Translations under genes and position numbers: made by a program
Shown: one piece after another, positions 55,037 through 55,478 of the stretch
How positions within the stretch are numbered: the first letter of the stretch is position 1
How the letters are laid out: each line of letters begins with the position of its first letter
The notes under the pieces: generated by a model
The model's database searches: none
Seen by the model: only the letters and a program-made list of their open reading frames with translations
What the model was told of the DNA's origin: nothing
Assembly (NCBI GenBank): GCA_946892665.1
Contig: CAMPOT010000001.1
Coordinates: 620,001 to 684,000, forward strand
Length of the DNA stretch: 64,000 bases
Source of the DNA: Chryseobacterium sp. Marseille-Q5410
GTDB taxonomy: Bacteria; Bacteroidota; Bacteroidia; Flavobacteriales; Weeksellaceae
Direction of reading: 5' to 3'

Positions 55037-55038
55037 AA

Positions 55039-55067
55039 GCAGGATGCAATAGGCAATAAGCAGGATG
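55039..55067. repeat. Heptanucleotide array, left end of copy 2
   Basis: Four 7-mers in register (GCAGGAT, GCAATAG, GCAATAA, GCAGGAT) and a partial fifth. The start codon of the inserted gene (55065-55067) is made by the last bases of the array. Confidence 0.85.
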
Positions 55068-55418
55068 CGTAACTACAGAAAATATGAGGTTTGGGAAATT
55101 GGTCATAAATTAACTAAAGAAATTTATCTTCTTACTTCAAAATTTCCGAAAGAAGAAATCTACGGATTAACTTCTCAGATTCGAAGAGCATCAGTTTCAA
55201 TTCCTACTAATATTGCAGAAGGTGGCGGACGTTTAACCGACAAAGAATTCGGAAGGTTTATTGATATAAGTTTAGGTTCGTTAAATGAGACAGAATATCT
55301 TTTATTCTTATCAAAAGAATTGAATTTCATCTCAGAATCAGAATTTGAACCAATTGCAATTCAATTGAATCTTCTCCGACAAAAATTAATTCAACTCAGA
55401 AAAAAAATATTAGAATAA
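55065..55418 (+). CDS. Four-helix-bundle protein, 23S rRNA intervening-sequence-protein-like, inserted in groESL
   Basis: The 117-residue protein begins MRNYRKYEVWEIGHKLTKEI and has the family core RRASVSIPTNIAEGGGRLTD, GSLNETEYLLFLSKELNFIS and a basic C-terminal helix. It belongs to the same superfamily as the gene at 49734 but to a different branch (AEGGGR rather than REAKNA in the signature). Its ATG overlaps the last repeat of the left heptad array, so the array supplies part of the coding start. It is in the groE orientation and is presumably expressed with the operon. The function is unknown. Confidence 0.92.
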   Translation: MRNYRKYEVWEIGHKLTKEIYLLTSKFPKEEIYGLTSQIRRASVSIPTNIAEGGGRLTDKEFGRFIDISLGSLNETEYLLFLSKELNFISESEFEPIAIQLNLLRQKLIQLRKKILE

Positions 55419-55432
55419 AAACCAGCGGTTTT

Positions 55433-55468
55433 GCATTAGGCTTCCTGCCTCCTGCGTCCCGCTTAAAG
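55433..55468. repeat. Heptanucleotide array, right end of copy 2
   Basis: Five 7-mers in register (GCATTAG, GCTTCCT, GCCTCCT, GCGTCCC, GCTTAAA), 10 nt before the groEL ATG. Inverted relative to the left array. Confidence 0.85.
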
Positions 55469-55478
55469 CATTAAAAAA

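Follow-up and report, generated by a model that had tools for sequence, protein, structure and literature searches.

Intervening sequences (IVSs) of 23S rRNA genes are the closest described counterparts of the element analyzed here. In the available portions of PMC4990558, an IVS of the Coxiella and Leptospira type, 428 nt in length, is described as having terminal inverted repeats, a sense S23p open reading frame (ORF) and tandem heptamers just before the ORF, and as undergoing excision by RNase III within the stem, followed by degradation. Those portions name no established function for the intervening-sequence protein (IVP) family and state that the Xanthomonas protein forms a toroidal homopentamer built from four-helix bundles (PMC4990558). 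Heptamer arrays of another kind, with the unit TAACTGA, occur in Beggiatoaceae, Cyanobacteria and five Bacteroidetes, where the available portions of PMC4679880 place them in intergenic DNA without an IVP; the text of that paper contains neither "23S" nor "four helix". In a limited literature search, PMC4990558 was the sole paper found to describe heptamers beside an IVP ORF. A figure legend on CRISPR associations from the FLSHclust work names "23S rRNA IVP" (in the available part of PMC10910872). Our guess is that heptad arrays were mistaken for CRISPR in that work. The same limited search returned no report of a general association between IVPs and inverted heptads, or of groESL spacer exchange of the kind described below. 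Cyanobacterial short tandemly repeated heptamers (STRRs) are 7-nt tandem units between genes, like the arrays of this locus, and to our knowledge they have no association with an IVP. The Avd proteins of diversity-generating retroelements have a related four-helix-bundle pentamer fold. Structures of IVP-family proteins have been solved, and we know of no function for them.

The window, that is, the whole stretch of 64,000 nucleotides that was analyzed, contains a groESL operon whose exact groES-groEL spacer (55037-55478, 442 nt) holds one 117-aa ORF between two arrays with a 7-nt period (Table 1). Both arrays pass a lag-7 self-match scan at 17/28, and the last unit of the left array overlaps the ORF and supplies its start codon. 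Reverse-complemented, the right array carries the theme of the left one; the two arms are thus inverted, a point absent from an earlier sequence-only reading of this DNA. That reading had described a groESL operon interrupted by an unrelated, co-oriented gene and two heptad arrays without a visible terminator, and profile matches, the sequence itself and a consensus scan agree with it. The consensus scan found no terminator-like site between groES and groEL and no plus-strand sigma-70-like site in 55037-55478. A motif scan of the same interval found no plus-strand site of TANNTTTG, which we take to be a Bacteroidota motif.

Table 1. Features of the groESL locus and of a second IVP element in the window (window positions)
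Feature	Coordinates	Strand	Basis
Left heptad array of the second element (GTATGAA GTATTAG ...)	49650..49693	+	TRF periods 7, 14, 21; lag-7 scan
Second IVP gene in the window	49734..50087	+	PF05635 5.1e-24 at G000:C1:669746-670051 = window 49746-50051; sequence
Right heptad array of the second element, inverted (period 7, TCCTCCA)	50092..50165	+	TRF; lag-7 scan
groES	54758..55036	+	PF00166 (Cpn10) 7.8e-33
Left heptad array (GCAGGAT GCAATAG GCAATAA GCAGGAT GC)	55039..55068	+	sequence; lag-7 scan 55034-55073
IVP gene, 117 aa, four-helix-bundle family	55065..55418	+	PF05635 1.3e-35; TIGR02436 1.6e-33; 2gsc_A 9.3e-20 by sequence
Right heptad array (GCATTAG GCTTCCT GCCTCCT GCGTCCC GCTTAAA GC)	55433..55469	+	sequence; lag-7 scan 55427-55478; pairs with left array in minimum-energy folds
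groEL	55479..57104	+	PF00118 (Cpn60) 2.4e-76
Terminator-like hairpin after groEL	57178..57203	+	consensus scan
RNase III gene, presumed processing enzyme	61882..62499 (G000:C1:681882-682499)	-	TIGR02191 2.0e-52

The inserted gene is a member of the 23S rRNA IVP family PF05635/TIGR02436. Its product scores 122.3 bits against a curated cut-off of 33.8 for PF05635 and 115.1 bits against a cut-off of 24 for TIGR02436, "four helix bundle protein". By sequence, its nearest solved structure is 2GSC (XCC0516), followed by 2RLD (E 0.00026). IVPs are basic proteins (median pI 8.6). Median dN/dS values among the intact IVPs of six groups are 0.06-0.15 (1 to 117 usable pairs per group), and on these sequence comparisons intact IVPs are under purifying selection. 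PF05635 is the sole match of the 117-aa product at E 0.001, with no transposase or nuclease/endonuclease domain, which is why a transposon or homing element with an encoded enzyme of this type was rejected. A diversity-generating retroelement was rejected as well, because, unlike an Avd system, this genome has no reverse transcriptase (RVT_1) match at E 0.001.

In common with the 23S IVS described in the available portions of PMC4990558, the insert is about 0.43 kb long, carries a sense IVP-family ORF in the loop between terminal inverted repeats, has heptamers before the ORF start and belongs to a set of elements in which the ORF decays. The IVP lies on the same strand as groES and groEL, with which it would be co-transcribed. 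Unlike that IVS, the insert sits in the groES-groEL mRNA spacer and has heptad arrays on both sides, and RNase III cutting, which was shown there, is presumed here (PMC4990558, available portions). The two 23S matches of this genome are on other contigs. In our reading, the insert is a known selfish element in variant form, residing in a setting that is new for it. Set against the TAACTGA arrays, it shares intergenic 7-nt direct arrays near start codons, some of them before presumably essential genes, whereas those arrays have one fixed unit and almost exclusively direct repeats, with one indirect repeat in the main genome (PMC4679880, available portions).

Minimum-energy folds pair the left arm with the right arm and leave the IVP gene in the loop, as expected of an IVS-type stem with complementary ends. 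In the predicted folds of the groESL copy, the stem is a ladder with approximately 5 paired bases and a 2x2 internal loop per unit. The mean number of predicted cross-arm pairs is 20.7 when arms are folded with their own partners and 11.5 when arms are swapped, and own arms exceed swapped arms across the 64 loci introduced below. Taken as a whole, the region has an unexceptional folding energy (z -0.81), matched by 22 of 100 shuffles. Paired and unpaired positions showed no peak at a period of 7 over 48 predicted folds; the evidence for the ladder therefore comes from individual folds and a single alignment. Of nine variable columns in the left stem region, six fell at unpaired positions and three at paired ones (reading of the alignment), and compensatory change was found in 0 of 22 pairs in ten close orthologous arm pairs.

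Several other features were observed around the operon. Directly 3' of groEL and before the terminator-like site, 57105-57171 appears by eye to be another degenerate GC-type heptad stretch, which the lag-7 scan missed. Just downstream of groESL, a BglII-type restriction endonuclease (PF09195) adjoins an N6/N4 DNA methylase (PF01555) at 57456-59058 on the minus strand, and a tandem repeat of 21/42 nt, multiples of 7, lies at 59109-59243, downstream of the start side of the methylase gene.

A profile search located PF05635 at seven places in the genome, two of them within the window. By eye, all seven IVPs have 7-nt arrays on both sides, with a theme that differs per locus; the arms are inverted in six and run in the same direction in the seventh, L004. 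Twelve of the 14 flanks pass the lag-7 scan at 16/28, and those that fail are one flank each of L002 and L004. The second element of the window (49650-50165) has the same anatomy as the groESL copy, with GTATGAA heptads facing inverted GGATGAA heptads, and follows a gene that we take to be YifB/ComM-like. Heptads as a general trait of this genome's spacers were rejected, because 400 kb of the genome's other DNA contains 30 lag-7 arrays, within the range of 14-49 seen at other lags (threshold 17/28). At 32192-32390, paired heptad arrays with CCAAGAA and ATCTAAC themes were observed with no IVP in between. There is no support for recent transposition inside this genome: the full-length copies L001, L002 and L004 group with copies from other species in the IVP tree.

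IVP elements recur at junctions other than groES-groEL. L001 and L002 precede the same downstream gene. The junction before a gene whose product begins MKQAYIIKG..., presumably thiolase-like, is a second recurrent IVP site in Kaistella and bears two heptad themes (L001, L010, L011, L012, L015, L017, L022, L024, L025, L029 and L032). L018, L019 and L021 mark a further recurrent site, before one downstream gene that we take to be carB-like. Genes preceded by other IVP elements include some that look thiolase-, carB- and acyl-CoA dehydrogenase-like. In L009, L023, L027, L030 and L031, the right heptad arrays seem to enter the start of the downstream ORF and to encode repetitive N-terminal extensions.

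In order to compare arms across loci, 130 IVP places were parsed, 12 incomplete ones were dropped and 54 of the remaining 118 were removed as redundant. The resulting 64 loci come from Kaistella best hits (19) and from a scan with the window's own IVP (45; best 80 of 327), and the set therefore leans to relatives of that IVP. Seven phyla are represented: Bacteroidota (47), Chloroflexota (5), Ignavibacteriota (4), Poribacteria (3), Planctomycetota (3), Cyanobacteriota (1) and Fibrobacterota (1). In the 80-nt flanks, self-match at lag 7 is 0.415 on the left and 0.426 on the right, with more peaks at lags 14, 21 and 28; the remaining lags, multiples of 7 aside, give 0.24-0.31. Among the named loci, flanks taken from other genes as controls rise slightly at lag 7 (0.317/0.312; 107 each), with multiples of 7 at 0.30-0.31 and most other lags at 0.27-0.29. 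The left arm matches its own inverted right arm with a mean score of 29.1, compared with 17.3 under permutation (sd of the mean 0.63; the largest of 10000 permutations was 20.3). Direct matching of own arms also exceeds permutation, by less than inverted matching does (19.9 vs 16.1, sd 0.50). Inverted matching exceeded direct matching in 48 of the 64 loci, direct exceeded inverted in 14, L004 of this genome included, and two were ties.

The pattern was found in two further groupings. When the 17 loci from the six phyla other than Bacteroidota were tested as one pool, the own inverted arm scored 27.6, compared with 19.4 when permuted (sd 1.5, largest 25.2), and lag-7 self-match was 0.44/0.42. 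An IVP profile match was present in 61 of 80 Bacteroidota genomes searched. A set of 28 further Bacteroidota loci, the best profile match per genome with 28 of 29 located and near copies kept (L247, L249), gave 26.3 for the inverted arm vs 16.2 permuted (sd 0.86, largest 20.0). Lag-7 self-match in this set was 0.393/0.384, and 0.291/0.301 in control flanks beside it (19 each). The rule behind the insert, an IVP between inverted heptad arms, seems general. Orientation could be counted at the 58 of the 64 loci with enough flank: the IVP was sense between co-directional genes in 51, antisense in 2 and between divergent or convergent genes in 5. The sequence-only reading had considered an insertion in this operon unexpected for a neutral element, a view at odds with these 51 loci and with the IVP elements known inside 23S rRNA genes (PMC4990558, available portions).

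We then compared 108 groES-groEL spacers from 108 genomes, a chosen sample comprising 36 Kaistella genomes and one of another genus (L037-L073), 58 more of the family from 148 genomes searched and 13 from other families. An IVP is present in 21 spacers, a remnant in 4 and neither in 83. The 71 family spacers with neither IVP nor remnant are 31-154 nt long, which upholds the earlier premise that a short spacer is the usual state. Inspection of open segments showed 13 of the 21 groESL IVPs to be open over their whole length, L047 being counted as intact with a GTG start, and 8 to be broken. Among the parsed loci, 18 also lie between groES and groEL; two were already in the 108-genome set and 16 came from others, for example Bergeyella, Riemerella, Chryseobacterium, Dokdonia and Flavobacterium davisii, and these 16 may overlap genomes of the 108-genome set. 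A one-off insertion was rejected, as many relatives have the same arrangement. The sequence-only reading had named a wide, ancient conservation of the gene order as what would refute it. The arrangement does extend to other Weeksellaceae genera and, as in Dokdonia and Flavobacterium davisii, beyond the family to one or more others of the order, but it is patchy (21 of 108), decayed in 8 of 21 cases and scattered on host trees.

Heptads are also found where the gene is lacking. In IVP-free family spacers of at least 70 nt, lag 7 exceeded dinucleotide shuffles at p <=0.01 in 31 of 58, and lags 6 and 8 did so in one of 58 each. The signal was found in none of the 13 shorter family spacers (<70 nt) and in 2 of the 6 IVP-free spacers of other families that were long enough. 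The two halves of IVP-free spacers match in inverted orientation with a score of 19.0, compared with 15.2 permuted (sd 0.61), and in direct orientation with 17.5 vs 16.1 (45 non-redundant spacers). Heptads and inverted halves together indicate that the groES-groEL site often holds a heptad hairpin with or without the gene. One IVP-free spacer, L089, has a long inverted repeat of the CCCCCTTTGGGGG type, unlike the heptad ladders.

The history of the site was followed in three trees, in which remnants were scored as present; the typing of IVPs as A, B or C relied on best matches and inspection. The first, an IVP tree with 98 rows, took in, besides the groESL copy, three full-length IVPs of this genome's seven (L001, L002 and L004). 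In it, one branch (support 55, not starred) has the 15 groESL IVPs all to the same side, compared with a shuffled mean of 14.3 changes, despite their coming from at least two host families. On this tree, groESL IVPs look like one lineage that is faithful to its site. A tree of groES/groEL flank DNA from the 108 genomes implies a minimum of 17 presence changes, 8 of these forced by starred branches, compared with a shuffled mean of 23.6 (0 of 500 as low). Presence is thus less scattered than shuffled labels, and part of the pattern is inheritance. The IVP types change 24 times on the same tree, compared with 25.4 when shuffled (20 of 200 as low). A third tree, built from pyruvate kinase for the 36 Kaistella genomes, requires 9 changes of presence, 7 of them forced, with a shuffled mean of 9.6; in many of the genomes this gene lies within a few kb of groESL and is therefore not a fully independent host marker. 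The genome studied here (type A) is sister to a type C genome on this tree (99/98), and another type A genome is sister to an IVP-less genome (100/100).

The latter pair, L065/L066, is 97.5% identical in groES and 95.9% in groEL, and the two spacers, of 424 and 95 nt, show no relationship between the stop codon and a point approximately 4 nt short of the start codon. In 8 of 29 genome pairs that are at least 92% identical in coding sequence and that are not independent (L049 and L111 recur), the spacer was unalignable. Gradual substitution fails to account for these, because other pairs at equal distance keep alignable spacers. The 120 nt upstream of groES could be aligned in all five comparable pairs among the 8. 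Exchange of the whole spacer is seen in L065/L066, L048/L049 and others. These comparisons indicate that the whole groES-groEL spacer has been repeatedly gained, lost and exchanged while the flanking genes stayed intact.

Such replacements also bear on the best surviving alternative, an exchange of cassettes at the DNA level, in which the arms act as DNA (a cruciform or recombination target), movement is homing-like or by homologous recombination through the groES and groEL flanks and RNA processing is incidental. The stop-to-start replacement in L065/L066, next to alignable DNA upstream of groES, is what this account would predict, and IVP-free spacers can differ in the same way (L111/L112, a pair in which the upstream region is not comparable). 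The sense bias of 51 to 2 between co-directional genes points instead to the transcript, and the IVP product has no recombinase or nuclease domain; we consider this alternative unlikely. A more improbable account is that the gene is an old passenger with slippage-prone repeats, inherited vertically and sometimes lost, the 7-nt period reflecting polymerase slippage and having no role. It would fit the single-lineage appearance of groESL IVPs and the partial clustering of presence on the 108-row tree. Slippage does not, however, make two arms into inverted copies of one theme or produce unrelated spacers between near-identical operons; the IVP types are spread over the flank tree almost as shuffles are, and heptads are not in excess elsewhere in the genome. 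Least probable of all is the proposal, raised in part by the sequence-only reading, that the insertion tunes groEL:groES or is heat-regulated, the IVP or hairpin serving the host by adjusting groEL against groES, for example after heat shock: the shared orientation, the lack of a terminator-like site between the genes and the purifying selection on intact IVPs would suit such a device, but the comparative evidence speaks against it, in that a groESL regulator would be conserved intact with the operon whereas 83 of the 108 spacers are without an IVP (with a remnant in 4 others), 8 of 21 IVPs are broken, presence within Kaistella is as scattered as shuffled labels and IVP elements also precede other genes.

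We favor the explanation that the insert is an IVS-like, selfish and site-faithful element residing between cistrons rather than inside 23S rRNA, with the IVP gene in the loop of a hairpin whose arms are inverted degenerate 7-mer arrays; on balance, this is probably correct. In the proposed mechanism, groES, the IVP gene and groEL would be co-transcribed, and the heptad hairpin would be cut by RNase III as in rRNA IVSs; an RNase III gene lies approximately 5 kb downstream of groESL, inside the window. Cutting of the groESL message at the hairpin would release the flanking chaperone cistrons and thereby leave the insert nearly neutral. Probable cleavage of the hairpin in this manner would explain why an essential operon tolerates the insert. 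The IVP, which is basic and, judging by its nearest solved relative, a pentamer of four-helix bundles, may bind the heptad nucleic acid. It may also promote the spread of the element or its persistence at the site, where the conserved genes on either side would serve as homology; a contribution to spread is presumed because selection keeps intact copies. The authors of PMC4990558, in its available portions, think that the rRNA IVS protein is not made in vivo, which speaks against the explanation. Also counting against it are the ordinary folding energy of the whole region, the lack of compensatory change and of a 7-nt period in pairing, the 14 loci with better direct than inverted matching, the low branch support of 55 in the IVP tree and the share of inheritance in the pattern of presence. 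Movement, the weakest step of the proposal, would be an exchange through the conserved flanking genes to which the IVP contributes, and spread may be homing-like. No enzyme to explain movement was found among transposase and nuclease domains in the product or reverse transcriptases in the genome.

We extend this explanation with slightly more doubt than confidence. IVP genes may be the protein part of a widespread, unrecognized class of intercistronic hairpin elements, present in Bacteroidota and, on pooled evidence from 17 loci, in six other phyla. Their arms would be inverted 7-mer arrays that are specific to each locus and co-diversify, and the rRNA IVSs would be the special case that came to notice. 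These elements would be faithful to particular operon junctions and be swapped whole and precisely between cistrons among species, leaving IVP-free heptad hairpins as non-autonomous forms, and the IVP would recognize a stem with a 7-nt period and not one sequence. The link of IVPs to inverted 7-nt arrays between co-directional genes would offer this protein family a laddered hairpin as a ligand that can be tested, polycistronic mRNA as its setting and a life cycle of site-faithful gain, decay and exchange. It would also imply a route for replacing the entire spacer of an essential operon while its genes remain untouched.
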